Below are positions 7,334-31,645 of a stretch of DNA of 32,672 bases, piece by piece. The stretch is taken from IMG/VR virus record IMGVR_UViG_3300004463_000125, positions 1 to 32,672 of that record. The stretch is one strand, 5' to 3'. The position numbers and the translations under genes were made by a program. This DNA comes from a virus. Position 1 is the first letter of the stretch; each line of letters begins with the position of its first letter. Below the pieces are notes generated by a model, which saw only the letters and a program-made list of their open reading frames with translations, was not told the DNA's origin and ran no database searches.

Positions 7334-8581
7334 ATGGCTGGTCTGAGAAATGGTGAGCAGCGGCTCTCTCCTAAAGAGCTGTATGAGCGCAACAAAGATG
7401 GTTCACTGACATACAAGGCTATTGAGGCGGGAATGAATCTGTCTCGATTCCTTGAGGAAGCAGACCCAAGCGAAGAGTACGGTAATGGAGAGGTTCTCGA
7501 TGCCTTTGGCCGTCAACTCAAGGTTGCTGGCATTAAGACGAACTCCGATCCGGCAGTTGGTATGTGGGCAGACGAATTCCGAGTCTTCTTTGAGGACGAG
7601 AATCGCGCTCTTGCTTCCGAGTTTATTGCTCGACAGTGGCGTGCGGCTCGCTTCCGCCGATCACCAAGCACTCGTGCAATTGGTGCTTCGCAGAAGTTTG
7701 ATCGCGACGTTTTCACCAGTGTCGACGAGGCGCTGAACACCATCTTCCGCCCATACTCTGACGCTTCTGATGTTCGTGCCCCCCGGCGTGTTCTTCCGCT
7801 CACGCTTGATCGTCTGGTCGCTGTGACGACCTCGATCGATAGCGATGCCTATCGCGCTGCATATATGACCGAGCCGAGTGAGGACAGCATGCGGATGACC
7901 CGAGTCACTGAACTCGGTGAAATTCCAATGGCTTCCATCACTCAGGGAAGTCAGGAAATTCGACTGCACAAGTACGGTCGCGGTTTCGAGCTTTCGTATG
8001 AGGCTATTCGCCGCACGAAGATCGACAAGGTGGCCTTCTGGGTTCAGCGCACTGCTATCCAGCAGGAAGCCGACAAGGTCGCTCATGCTCTTGACGTTCT
8101 GGTCAACGGCGATGGCAACAACAACGCTGCCACTGTCCACGATCAGACTACTCTTGACTCTGGATCGTCTGCTGGCACCCTCACCTTTGAGGCATGGCTC
8201 GCGTTCAAGGAAACGTGGGGCGATGCTTACATGATGGACTTGGCAATTATGCCGGGTGCGACGAAGGTCGAACTGTTGATGCTGGACACTGGCTCTGGTA
8301 ACAACATGGCCTACACGCTGTCGTTCATGGGTGGCGTGAATGACACCAATGGTCGGCTTGGCGACACCGTCGACGTTGCTTCCTACAGTGGCGTTGCTGC
8401 TGATACCATTATTGGTATCGACACAACTGCGGCGCTGGAGCACGTGATGGAGATTGGTTCGGATATTACCGAAACCGAGAAATTCATCACACGCCAGTCA
8501 AACGTTATCGTGATGAGCGAGGTTGAAGGATTTGCGGTTCTTGATGAGAACGCCACTCACATCCTCGACATCGGAGCTTAG
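7334..8581 (+). CDS. Major capsid protein (HK97-fold)
   Basis: The 415-residue protein has the size and order expected of an HK97-fold capsid subunit. The charged N-terminal helices (about 1-120) are followed by a long loop region, a central spine helix around YEAIRRTKIDKVAFWVQRT (about 220-240), and a C-terminal part with AIMPGATKVELLMLD and TETEKFITRQSNVIVMSE that fits the A domain. Such ends are usual for phage capsid genes following a decoration gene. The start follows a GGGAG ribosome site by 5-6 bases. Codon use is the same as its neighbours. Confidence 0.85.
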   Translation: MAGLRNGEQRLSPKELYERNKDGSLTYKAIEAGMNLSRFLEEADPSEEYGNGEVLDAFGRQLKVAGIKTNSDPAVGMWADEFRVFFEDENRALASEFIARQWRAARFRRSPSTRAIGASQKFDRDVFTSVDEALNTIFRPYSDASDVRAPRRVLPLTLDRLVAVTTSIDSDAYRAAYMTEPSEDSMRMTRVTELGEIPMASITQGSQEIRLHKYGRGFELSYEAIRRTKIDKVAFWVQRTAIQQEADKVAHALDVLVNGDGNNNAATVHDQTTLDSGSSAGTLTFEAWLAFKETWGDAYMMDLAIMPGATKVELLMLDTGSGNNMAYTLSFMGGVNDTNGRLGDTVDVASYSGVAADTIIGIDTTAALEHVMEIGSDITETEKFITRQSNVIVMSEVEGFAVLDENATHILDIGA

Positions 8582-27593: not shown

Positions 27594-28091
27594 ATGAAGA
27601 ATCTGTTGTTCGCGTTTGTTCTGGCCTTCATGGCCGCGTTGATGATCGGCGGTGTAGCTGTCGCTCAGGTCGATGAGGATACTCTTGAGGATGCGGCGGC
27701 AACCGAGGAAGCCGCTGAGACGACCACTGACGAATCGACGGTCGACGAAGTAGGAGACGAGCTTGACGAAATCTCCCCGATCGAAACATGGGAACTTCTC
27801 GCCGGTATCATCATTCCGCTGATCGTCGGTGCAATTAACCGTCAAGGGTGGACTGTTCAATACAAGAACGGAGCCTTGTTCGCAGTCTCGGCAGTCATGA
27901 CCGCAATTGGTCTGTACTTCCAAGGCGATCTCGATCAGGTTGAGGACTGGGTGACAACGCTGATGACACTCGCTCTGATGTCGTATGCCACCTACAACAC
28001 GCTTTGGCAATTCCTGCCTCTTCCGCAGCGCATTGAGGCCGCAACTGGCGGCGATCCGATTGCTACGTCGAAGTATCTTCGCTCTCACTAG
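27594..28091 (+). CDS. Signal-peptide-bearing membrane protein, holin candidate
   Basis: The 165-residue protein starts with a typical Sec signal or first span (MKNLLFAFVLAFMAALMIGG, with A-x-A-Q near residue 23-25). A strongly acidic threonine/glutamate-rich stretch follows (about 26-62). Two or three hydrophobic spans come next (about 67-82, 94-110 and 120-136, with a GWTVQYK loop). The C-terminus is polar and basic. The motif IIPLIVGAINRQ resembles the PILVGLVT-type start of holins known in actinobacterial phages. Directly after the endolysin and small peptides it fits as a holin or periplasm-linked lysis regulator. CGGAGAAAG precedes the ATG. Confidence 0.65.
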   Translation: MKNLLFAFVLAFMAALMIGGVAVAQVDEDTLEDAAATEEAAETTTDESTVDEVGDELDEISPIETWELLAGIIIPLIVGAINRQGWTVQYKNGALFAVSAVMTAIGLYFQGDLDQVEDWVTTLMTLALMSYATYNTLWQFLPLPQRIEAATGGDPIATSKYLRSH

Positions 28092-28095
28092 ACGG

Positions 28096-28177
28096 TATAC
28101 TTTCAGTGGTCAGGGGTGTGTTCTTGCAGGATGCTGATGTGTCGTTCCCGGACGAATGCCACTCTCCCCTGACCACT
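28096..28177 (+). promoter_or_regulatory. -10-like box followed by a 12-bp inverted repeat before the ParB gene
   Basis: TATACT (28096-28101) is followed 3 bases later by AGTGGTCAGGGG (28105-28116), whose exact reverse complement CCCCTGACCACT lies at 28166-28177, a 12-bp stem with a 49-base loop. If the box is a promoter, the transcript starts inside the left arm and its 5' leader would be capped by this stem before the ParB ribosome site (GAGG near 28184). No convincing -35 was seen. It might equally end the lysis transcript or bind a protein as two half-sites. It fills most of the 102-base gap 28092-28193. Confidence 0.5.
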
Positions 28178-28193
28178 CTCACTCGAGGCAGAC

Positions 28194-28751
28194 ATGGCGA
28201 AATTCAAATCACGCATCGTCGGGCATGAGGACGTGCCGCCCGATCAACTCTTGGCGAATCCTCTCAATTTCAGAGTCCACTCAAAACAACAACAAACCGC
28301 CATGAAATCGATGCTGGAGTCGATTGGCTGGCTGGATGAAATCATTGTCAACTCTCGCACAGGCCATGTGATCAATGGTCACATGCGAGTCAATATCGCC
28401 ATGCGAGACAATGAACCCACTGTGCCGGTTCGCTACGTGGACTTGACTCAGGAAGAAGAGAATCTTGCACTCGCAACCTTTGATCCCATCTCCGGACTGG
28501 CCTCTCACGACAAAGATGTGCTGGAATCCCTGCTCGAAGACACCGAGGCTCCCAGTGACATTCTTGAGCAATTCCTCTCGAAGCTCCTGCCTGCTGGCGG
28601 AAAGGGCGGAGAAGATGCCGGTGATCAGGAAGACGAGCTTGGCGAAAGCCGCTACATGATTCTGATCGACTGCGAAGATGAAGACGATCAGGTCAGATTG
28701 CTGGAGAAATTCACGAATGAGGGAATAGCGTGTCGAGCACTAAGTTCCTGA
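28194..28751 (+). CDS. ParB-like nuclease/CTPase-fold protein
   Basis: The 185-residue protein has an N-terminal ParB/sulfiredoxin-like domain. A proline-asparagine start (LLANPLNFRVHSKQQQ) precedes a helix and GWLDEIIVNSRTGHVINGHM, the G-H-x-R-like core that coordinates nucleotide in this fold. A following EEENLALATFDPIS completes the domain (about to residue 105). The C-terminal part has an acidic linker and a small alpha-beta segment (ESRYMILIDCEDEDDQVRLL). The gene lacks the helix-turn-helix of plasmid ParB. Similar phage proteins are near DNA-modifying enzymes. It overlaps the next gene by 22 bases, so the two are translated together. Confidence 0.75.
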   Translation: MAKFKSRIVGHEDVPPDQLLANPLNFRVHSKQQQTAMKSMLESIGWLDEIIVNSRTGHVINGHMRVNIAMRDNEPTVPVRYVDLTQEEENLALATFDPISGLASHDKDVLESLLEDTEAPSDILEQFLSKLLPAGGKGGEDAGDQEDELGESRYMILIDCEDEDDQVRLLEKFTNEGIACRALSS

Positions 28752-29857
28752 TCGAGCGGCACGTAGACATCGAGAAAACACCCCGCGTTTTGCAGCTAGA
28801 GGGATTGTTCGATGTTCCACCGTCAGAACGAAGCTCCGAACGTTGGGAAGTTACCCTTGATCTTGATTTCGATTGGAACATCGGGCTTGTGGTCGGACCA
28901 TCTGGCTCAGGAAAGACGACACTGGTTAACGAGCTTTTCCCCGGAGAAGTCGTGGACGGATGGCAATGGCCGGACAGCAAGTCTGTTCTGGATGGATTCC
29001 CTCCCGGAATGCCAGTCCGAGACATCGTCGACCTCTTGTCCTCCGTTGGATTCTCTTCCCCTCCCTCCTGGCTTCGGCCTTATCGAGTTCTCTCCACAGG
29101 AGAGAAGTTTCGAGTCGATATGGCTCGAACACTCGCTGAGAAACCTGCTTTCTCGGTTGTCGACGAGTTCACTTCCGTTGTGGATCGGACTGTTGCGCAG
29201 ATAGGGAGCGCGGCAATAGCAAAGTCAGTGCGCAGGAGAGGCCAGAAGTTCATCGCCGTCTCCTGTCACTATGATGTCATCGACTGGTTGTGTCCAGACT
29301 GGATTTATGAGCCTCACACCAACCGGCTAGAACGGGGGTCACTTCGGCGACGCCCAGACATCACGCTGGTCATCCAAAGGGTCCATCACTCGGCGTGGGA
29401 GTTGTTCCGCAAGCATCACTATCTAGATACATCGCTCCACAAGAGCGCTCATTGCTTCGTAGCGACGTGGAATGATGTTCCTGTAGCGTTTAGCTCTTGG
29501 CTCGCGTCTCCGGGCCATAGAGACGCGTACAGAGAGCATAGGACTGTCTGTCTCCCAGACTATCAGGGTGTCGGGATAGGAAATGCGGTTAGTGATGCCT
29601 GCGCATCGATCGTAAAAGCCGTTGGCAAGCGTCCAATAAGCGCGACATCACACCCGGCGATGATTCGATCTCGGGCAAGGTCGAAGAATTGGAAGCTCGT
29701 TCGTAGCCCATCAATGACCAAACGGGGTGGGAAATTGTACCTAGAGTCAGGCCTTGGGAAACGTTCGGCGATGACGAGATTGACTGCTGGCTTTGCGTAT
29801 GTAGGTCCGGCAATGGATCGATCCTTGGCAGCGTGTTTATGGGCGTCAGAGAAGTGA
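28730..29857 (+). CDS. Fused ABC-ATPase and GNAT acyltransferase (COG2401-like)
   Basis: The GTG start at 28730 has GAGGG 6 bases upstream and lies in the end of the ParB gene. Residues about 25-205 form a soluble ABC ATPase: Walker A GPSGSGKT (56-63), signature LSTGEKFRVD (121-130), Walker B with the acidic pair FSVVDEF (141-147), and a switch histidine in VSCHYD (H180). There are no membrane segments. Residues about 215-370 resemble a GNAT acyltransferase: FVATWNDVPVAFSSW strands, then LPDYQGVGIGNAVSD (acyl-CoA loop, about 275-289) and ATSHPAMIRSRA. The combination matches COG2401, an ATPase fused to a predicted acetyltransferase. Substrate unknown; a nucleic-acid modification is plausible with the ParB partner. 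It is the last plus-strand gene. Confidence 0.8.
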   Translation: MSSTKFLIERHVDIEKTPRVLQLEGLFDVPPSERSSERWEVTLDLDFDWNIGLVVGPSGSGKTTLVNELFPGEVVDGWQWPDSKSVLDGFPPGMPVRDIVDLLSSVGFSSPPSWLRPYRVLSTGEKFRVDMARTLAEKPAFSVVDEFTSVVDRTVAQIGSAAIAKSVRRRGQKFIAVSCHYDVIDWLCPDWIYEPHTNRLERGSLRRRPDITLVIQRVHHSAWELFRKHHYLDTSLHKSAHCFVATWNDVPVAFSSWLASPGHRDAYREHRTVCLPDYQGVGIGNAVSDACASIVKAVGKRPISATSHPAMIRSRARSKNWKLVRSPSMTKRGGKLYLESGLGKRSAMTRLTAGFAYVGPAMDRSLAACLWASEK

Positions 29858-30540: not shown

Positions 30541-30922
30541 AGTCTTTTTCTCTCGCCTCCACCGATCTCCATGCATCTGTCGCCATTCTGCCCCAGTACG
30601 CTCGCTCTTTCATGGTTCCCACGTTGTTTTTGTCCATCAGCCTCAGTAAATCGTGCTGGAAGTCGTTGATTTCGCCTCCAGCGTTGCGATACGCCGGGAC
30701 AATGCTCTCCAGAGCCTTCATAGCGTCCATCTTGGCCTCAAGACGAAGCTGAGCCTTCTGTAACGCTGGATATGCTCCTGCTGCAATGTCTCGCTTGATC
30801 GCAACCTCGATCACCGGAATGGCGAGCTTCATCACTCGCATTCTTCGACCGTAATTGCCTCCCCTGATTGTTCTGATGTCATACAGCTTCAATGCTGACA
30901 CCATTCTCGTGAATATAGTCAT
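30530..30922 (-). CDS. Helical early-region protein, function unknown
   Basis: The 130-residue protein is mostly helical and basic in its first half (YGRRMRVMKLAIPVIEVAIK) and amphipathic later (QKAQLRLEAKMDAMKALESI). Its end is a tryptophan/tyrosine-containing charged tail. The ATG has GGAG 7 bases upstream and lies 44 bases inside the upstream GNAT gene. No motif was recognised; nucleic-acid binding or an internal accessory role is possible. Confidence 0.55.
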   Translation of the reverse strand: MTIFTRMVSALKLYDIRTIRGGNYGRRMRVMKLAIPVIEVAIKRDIAAGAYPALQKAQLRLEAKMDAMKALESIVPAYRNAGGEINDFQHDLLRLMDKNNVGTMKERAYWGRMATDAWRSVEAREKDYGD

Positions 30923-31211
30923 CTGTGTACTCCGTCACGCCGCATTTCTCGTAAACACGAGCCATGGCAGGGTTCAGCGCTACAGAGCCGCCAAATGCGA
31001 AGCCCTTTGACTCATAGTGCTCTTTGATTTCAGTCAGGAGCTTGGTGGCATGACCTTTGTTCTGATCTGCGCTCAGGATGAAGTAGAGAGTCGCCCACTT
31101 GCCGTCAGACTCATCGCCCGTAGCGACATCTGCGACACAGTCGTATCCCTCCCATCGATCCATCGTGCCTTCCATGAAGCTGTTTCTGGATTTGTGCATT
31201 GTCGCGCTCAT
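30879..31211 (-). CDS. Small GNAT-family acetyltransferase
   Basis: The ATG at 31211 overlaps the previous stop by four bases (ATGA), which is preferred over an in-frame ATG 12 bases upstream; the product is 110 residues. YFILSADQNKGHATKLLTEI holds the acetyl-CoA loop (Q-x-x-G-H-A). NPAMARVYEKCGVTEYTD is the following beta-alpha element, where an N-x-x-x-x-x-Y-x-K-x-G motif ends the GNAT fold. The domain is short, missing some N-terminal strands. The substrate cannot be read. It lies in the minus-strand operon. Confidence 0.7.
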   Translation of the reverse strand: MSATMHKSRNSFMEGTMDRWEGYDCVADVATGDESDGKWATLYFILSADQNKGHATKLLTEIKEHYESKGFAFGGSVALNPAMARVYEKCGVTEYTDDYIHENGVSIEAV

Positions 31212-31645
31212 TCGATCCCCCATTTTTCAGGCAATTGCCATATGTGTAGCGTGTGCTCGTGAACGTTGATGTAGACCTCTTCCTCGGGAAGGAGCATCAC
31301 GGCTGCGACATCATCAGGGAAGAAGAGTCTCTTGAGTCCAATCATGATCTCCCACGGCGGAAGATGCTCGGCGTGCGATACAGACAGATGCAGGAGATAA
31401 CCATGCTTGCTCCTGTCAAGACTGGCGATGATCCCGTAGTTTTCTACATCGTAGACTCGATACTCACTGATCCATCGCTTCTTTACCGACGCCTCCAGAT
31501 TTGGCAACTGAATATAAATCCTCGTGACCTCGTGATTCTTTCCATCGATCTCAATCGACGAGAACGCCGGAATGTCGATCTTCGGTGTCCATGCCTTTGT
31601 CGGCATCCGCCCTCGTTTCCTTGCTCTCTCAATCGTTTTATTCAT
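31208..31645 (-). CDS. Phage protein resembling DUF7694, function unknown
   Basis: The 145-residue protein has a basic N-terminus (ERARKRGRMPTKAW). A beta-rich middle follows, with HGYLLHLSVSHAEHLPPWEI, then GLKRLFFPDDVAAVMLLPEE and NVHEHTLHIWQLPEKW. The order of histidine-rich strand, PPW motif, FPDDVAAVMLLP and H-x-x-W end resembles small early phage proteins of the DUF7694 type; this is from memory of the pattern. The start overlaps the regulator stop (ATGA), and the end overlaps the GNAT gene. Confidence 0.6.
   Translation of the reverse strand: MNKTIERARKRGRMPTKAWTPKIDIPAFSSIEIDGKNHEVTRIYIQLPNLEASVKKRWISEYRVYDVENYGIIASLDRSKHGYLLHLSVSHAEHLPPWEIMIGLKRLFFPDDVAAVMLLPEEEVYINVHEHTLHIWQLPEKWGIE

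Follow-up and report, generated by a model that had tools for sequence, protein, structure and literature searches.

A phage gene pair encoding a ParB-fold protein and an ABC ATPase-GNAT fusion as a probable DNA base-modification system

Described relatives of the gene pair

The idea that proteins combining an ABC ATPase with a GNAT domain acyl-modify DNA has already been published: according to a statement on these proteins in Iyer et al. 2021 (PMC7824862), a GNAT joined to an ABC ATPase was predicted by the same authors in 2013 to acylate a DNA base, and Tenacibaculum phage pT24 is named there. The pT24 gene is a homologue of the ABC ATPase-GNAT fusion gene (ABC-GNAT) described here, with ~40% identity and the same domain pair, and its predicted function is the one that we propose for our cassette. 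The pT24 locus differs in that its annotation splits ABC and GNAT into two genes and that no upstream ParB was detected with the profile used here.

Several described phage base modifiers are associated with ParB domains. These domains occur fused to phage DNA methylases, where they bind ATP, CTP or GTP, and one bacterial ParB-acetyltransferase fusion binds GTP (PMC12704722). The phage DNA methyltransferases with such a fusion (phrog_498) have the same ParB/Srx core as the ParB-fold protein of our locus (1.4e-18), but here a separately encoded ABC-GNAT stands in the methylase's place. ParBc proteins, 1,660 sequences in all, also lie in the neighbourhood of CmoX, an experimentally proven cytosine modifier (PMC12783734). 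Loci of this carboxymethyltransferase therefore resemble ours in having a phage base modifier near ParBc, whereas CmoX uses carboxy-SAM and is not a GNAT. The Mom protein of Mu, a methylcarbamoylase (PDB 8bv8), belongs to the GNAT superfamily, as does the GNAT domain of ABC-GNAT. Mom has conserved ELxR and SFAD motifs and, unlike ABC-GNAT, neither a QGxGxG CoA loop nor an ABC domain. The MetaGPA paper contained no relevant mention, and our literature search returned no relevant paper naming COG2401, whose proteins have this fusion according to the first-pass annotation.

The locus and its two proteins

The window (the whole stretch of DNA analysed, a 32,672-base IMG/VR virus record) has on its + strand a capsid gene (7334-8581) together with genes for tail and tape-measure proteins. 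The parB and ABC-GNAT genes form the end of this + strand gene run, after the tail genes, and the next likely genes downstream lie on the - strand. Neither a terminase gene nor a parA gene adjoins the cassette in the window. The pair had been described as two genes overlapping by 22 bases behind a leader of their own; the coordinates proved exact and the open reading frames real. A ribosome-binding-like AGGG lies within the 3' end of parB, just 5' of the ABC-GNAT GTG. The features of the locus are as follows.

28092-28193, + strand: leader of 102 bases, between the stop at 28091 of a small membrane-protein-like gene and the parB ATG at 28194
28105-28177, no strand: leader inverted repeat with arms at 28105-28121 and 28161-28177 (17 nt, 88%), outer 12 bp perfect
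28194-28751, + strand: parB, ATG start, 185 aa, ParB/Srx-fold protein
28650-28748, + strand: ParB C-terminal tail, ending DCEDEDDQVRLLEKFTNEGIACRALSS, from the alignment of ABC-GNAT partners
28730-28751, + strand: exact 22-base overlap of parB and the ABC-GNAT gene
28730-29857, + strand: ABC ATPase-GNAT fusion gene, GTG start, 375 aa
28895-28918, + strand: Walker A GPSGSGKT, residues 56-63
29090-29104, + strand: ABC signature LSTGE, residues 121-125
29156-29188, + strand: Walker B and D-loop VVDEFTSVVDR, residues 143-153
29267-29269, + strand: H-loop histidine H180, in the near-invariant CHYDVIDW that starts at residue 179
29357-29854, + strand: GNAT domain, residues 210-375
29414-29425, + strand: HHYL motif early in the GNAT domain, residues 229-232, H230 and Y231 near-invariant
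29564-29581, + strand: acyl-CoA pyrophosphate-binding loop QGVGIG, residues 279-284, Q279, G280 and G282 invariant

The inverted repeat in the leader is a possible operator or RNA-level control element. No other perfect copies of its arms occur in the window, and an equally good repeat arose in 1 of 30 shuffles. The folding energy of the leader RNA was not unusual (z -0.5). We rejected the repeat as a conserved control element, since strong repeats were found in a minority of relatives and had no common motif. Further downstream, a 114-aa open reading frame near a DUF7694 gene (30879-31223, - strand) gave a weak GNAT match (Pfam 0.0015) and is possibly a truncated acetyltransferase.

The 185-aa ParB protein matched phrog_620 (3e-15) as well as phrog_498, which places it in the ParB/Srx fold; no match was obtained in Pfam. 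When its structure model (pLDDT 90) was searched with Foldseek, the best solved relatives were CDP-bound ParB (6sdk) and sulfiredoxin, and equivalents of box I (N25) and box II (G62-H-M-R65) could be assigned. The protein does not have the marks of a ParABS partition ParB: no parA gene lies beside its own, and neither a helix-turn-helix (HTH) nor a C-terminal dimer domain was detected in the 185 residues. In the alignment of ABC-GNAT partners, E163, Q166 and G177 of the C-terminal tail exceeded most of the ParB core in conservation, and the tail is a putative dock for ABC-GNAT.

ABC-GNAT itself is a full-length match to phrog_11143, a family of unknown function (E 2.5e-106, residues 8-362), and hits ABC_tran (2.9e-7) and Acetyltransf_1 (1.1e-4) in Pfam, both past the curated cut-offs. 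Its AlphaFold2 model was confident nearly throughout (pLDDT 92.1, pTM 0.86). Among the matches listed, the homologue from Leptospira phage LE4 was the only full-length one in the viral structures, and those in the PDB (Foldseek) were ABC ATPases. The earlier description of a soluble ABC ATPase with Walker A, signature, Walker B and H-loop, joined to a GNAT with an acyl-CoA loop, was borne out: all motifs are intact, and in 49 aligned homologues the key residues of these motifs and of the D-loop show little or no variation, and the same holds for the block CHYDVIDWL.PDW.

Assigning the C-terminal domain to a more specific GNAT family gave a mixed outcome, in that no particular protein or small-molecule acetyltransferase family was matched and neither was Mom at a significant level. 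Searches of NCBIfam, PHROGs and PDB profiles returned generic GNAT or phage acetyltransferase models only, and the rimI and AAC(6') models each matched 1 of 20 ABC-GNAT members. RNA cytidine acetyltransferases of the TmcA/NAT10 type also join an NTPase to a GNAT and act on nucleic acid; their NTPase is of the helicase type, not ABC, and in the PDB profile search they reached just E 0.5. This marginal similarity, together with Pfam matches of the C-terminal domain to generic GNAT models only, would fit a reading in which ABC-GNAT serves host takeover or shut-off by acylating a protein or RNA of the host (for instance RNA polymerase, the ribosome or tRNA) and ParB is an unrelated nucleotide sensor. 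GNATs are common as protein modifiers in phages, an example given in Iyer et al. (PMC7824862) being Rac, which acts on RNA polymerase. We consider a host target unlikely, however, because ABC-GNAT alternates with mom in one slot, the ParB core is common with DNA modifiers, and the cassette sits at the late/packaging boundary and not among early takeover genes.

Kinship with Mom was likewise not detectable. Profile similarity between the two GNATs was not significant (hhalign P 0.26-0.42), and a Mom HMM run against 167 ABC-GNATs gave a best value of 8e-5 (Leptospira LE3), with all others at 0.5 or worse. We therefore rejected the GNAT domain as a Mom family member, as it has no significant profile match, lacks SFAD and carries the canonical QGVGIG; the link to Mom is one of context. 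The invariant HYS of Mom may correspond to HHYL near the start of the domain, by a weak hhalign placement. ABC-GNAT has an intact CoA loop where Mom has none, which suggests that it carries out a genuine acyl-CoA reaction; the chemistry may thus differ from that of Mom.

Distribution of the cassette and its exchange with mom

The cassette is common in phages, and the pair in the window is one more member of the predicted ABC-GNAT kind. Using tblastn, we found relatives of ABC-GNAT in 69 of 50,697 phage records, including phages of Gordonia, Lactococcus, Streptococcus, Leptospira, Pseudomonas and Porphyromonas as well as jumbo phages. Two IMG/VR scans based on conserved peptide patterns yielded 118 and at least 597 relatives, respectively. 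After the loci had been made non-redundant at 90% identity, ParB was directly upstream of ABC-GNAT in 107 of the 121 loci with enough upstream sequence, compared with 16 of 1,113 other genes (at least 200 aa) in the same fetched loci, indicating that the pair is not due to chance. The overlap had the same length of 22 bases in 43 of these 107. Two adjacent open reading frames encode ABC and GNAT separately in pT24 and in phages of Lactococcus, Streptococcus and Oenococcus. ParB is absent before ABC-GNAT in the Porphyromonas gingivalis phages and in Komp_PAO1_1, and thus is not essential everywhere.

We also inspected the genes that follow ABC-GNAT. A formyltransferase (PF00551) came directly after it in 7 of 132 non-redundant loci, among them a Gordonia phage and Komp_PAO1_1, and also follows it in P. 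gingivalis phages 008a and 011a; with so few loci, and absent from the window, it was discarded as a core component. When the longest gene was taken from the 3 kb downstream of each locus, terminase and portal families dominated: of 87 such genes, 13 matched PF04860 portal alone and 12 the phrog_2 terminase alone, and further families came on top. Terminase or portal genes thus frequently come right after the cassette, an arrangement that a role in DNA packaging or segregation might produce, with ParB and an ABC clamp handling the DNA and the GNAT modifying terminase, portal or another packaging protein. That reading seems very unlikely to us, as a long distance separates the cassette from the terminase genes of the P. 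gingivalis phages, in the window it comes after the tail genes, the P. gingivalis sibling 010a does without it, and it has no ParA partner.

The best evidence for base modification is comparative, namely the exchange of mom and ABC-GNAT in one slot. A search with Mu Mom led to Porphyromonas phage 014a, whose right end carries a Mom-like gene in the position taken by ABC-GNAT and a formyltransferase in phage 008a. The two genomes are 95-96% identical over ~28 kb, a value that falls to 86% in the final 3 kb of tail genes; their homology picks up again at the right end past the slot. Searching with the neighbouring tail genes yielded ten related Mu-like P. gingivalis phages that share this slot. 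It holds a Mom-family gene in four (012a, 013a, 014a and 015a; HMM-checked), ABC-GNAT in five (006a, 007a, 008a, 009a and 011a; by tblastn, with an HMM check in 008a and 011a) and no annotated gene in 010a. The mom locus of Mu-like phages is thus occupied by ABC-GNAT in relatives of the window cassette, not in the window itself. In Pseudomonas phages, a 280-bp segment of 73% identity lies just upstream of mom in PAN70 and of ABC-GNAT in Komp_PAO1_1, on one flank only. The exchange establishes an interchangeable position and not the same chemistry, and accessory genes of differing function can share slots. The near-isogenic P. gingivalis set (mom, ABC-GNAT and empty) is a natural control series for nucleoside analysis.

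Like ABC-GNAT, Mom-type enzymes exist in forms preceded by ParB. An HMM trained on the ParB partners of ABC-GNAT detected ParB directly upstream of Appa-type Mom in 39 of 39 testable non-redundant loci, a sample biased by a query that was itself a ParB-linked Mom, and in 0 of 19 loci of the Mu/Porphyromonas-type Mom clade. Such a pair is seen in gp46-gp47 of Microbacterium phage Appa, an isolated example. The ParB core HMM matched the Mom-associated ParBs with E values down to 1e-45. They have the common core and carry a zinc-ribbon-like CPxC (CPHC) tail instead of the DExxQ tail of the ABC-GNAT partners. Mom-type GNATs preceded by a CPHC-tailed ParB make up a large phage clade. ParB may therefore be a DNA-delivery subunit common to base modifiers.

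A third alternative appears highly improbable, namely that the cassette serves defence or superinfection exclusion by damaging or marking the DNA of competitors. ParB/Srx proteins can nick DNA, according to a statement cited in PMC12839542, and weak PADLOC matches pointed to the defence-system genes mad3 and mad8, but the cassette has no nuclease domain and PADLOC returned nothing past partial ATPase matches and one ParB-methylase.

Proposed mechanism and divergent forms of the cassette

Together, ParB and ABC-GNAT probably constitute a DNA base-modification system. The first-pass annotation had proposed a possible modification of phage nucleic acid and named Mom as background; the alternation with mom, the ParB common to Mom-type enzymes and the published prediction speak for that function, while the profile kinship with Mom did not materialize. 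The invariant ABC and GNAT catalytic motifs, the neighbourhood of packaging genes and the ParB domains fused to methylases or lying near CmoX also count in favour of base modification. We infer a mechanism in which the cassette would be expressed late and ParB, in its NTP-bound state, would bind or encircle DNA as the loading subunit. ABC-GNAT might then dock on the C-terminal tail of ParB, which would bring the acyltransferase to DNA. ATP-driven dimerisation of the ABC domain could grip or distort the DNA, so that the fused domain would serve as a nucleotide-driven clamp or distorting module and thereby expose or license the bases to be modified. The GNAT would take an acyl group, or a related one, from CoA as the donor and pass it to an exocyclic amine of a base in the phage DNA, and the modified genome may be shielded from restriction, as by Mom in Mu. 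In a speculative further step, a PurN-like formyltransferase, in the loci that have one, could formylate the transferred group on a free amine.

A wider reading is conceivable, and we regard it as rather doubtful. Here, ParB/Srx proteins would be general NTP-gated loaders for phage base modifiers, with tails specific to each enzyme: a methylase fusion, a zinc-ribbon-like tail for Mom and DExxQ...GxxCRAL for ABC-GNAT. ABC-GNAT would install an undescribed base that is further formylated in loci with the PurN-like gene; an N-glycyl base whose free amine receives the formyl group is one example. Returning to base modification by the cassette as such, if it does modify DNA, a new phage base would be hidden in plain sight in laboratory phages. 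The cassette is present, for instance, in Gordonia phages Ligma and Axumite, Rhodococcus phage Jace and Lactococcus phage P335.

Divergent forms of the cassette were also encountered. A family search within Planctomycetota recovered a split form consisting of ParB, ABC and a short GNAT, which adjoins the terminase large subunit in 3 of 3 loci tested. In two related Planctomycetota, ParB and a fused ABC-GNAT lie beside a PIG-L deacetylase gene in seemingly conserved chromosomal surroundings, and a cellular role is thus possible for these two copies. Finally, in an SSU5-like phage-plasmid, an operon just before the terminase combines two ParB-like genes with a solitary ABC gene and another gene whose annotation is an ATPase with an acyl-CoA N-acyltransferase domain.
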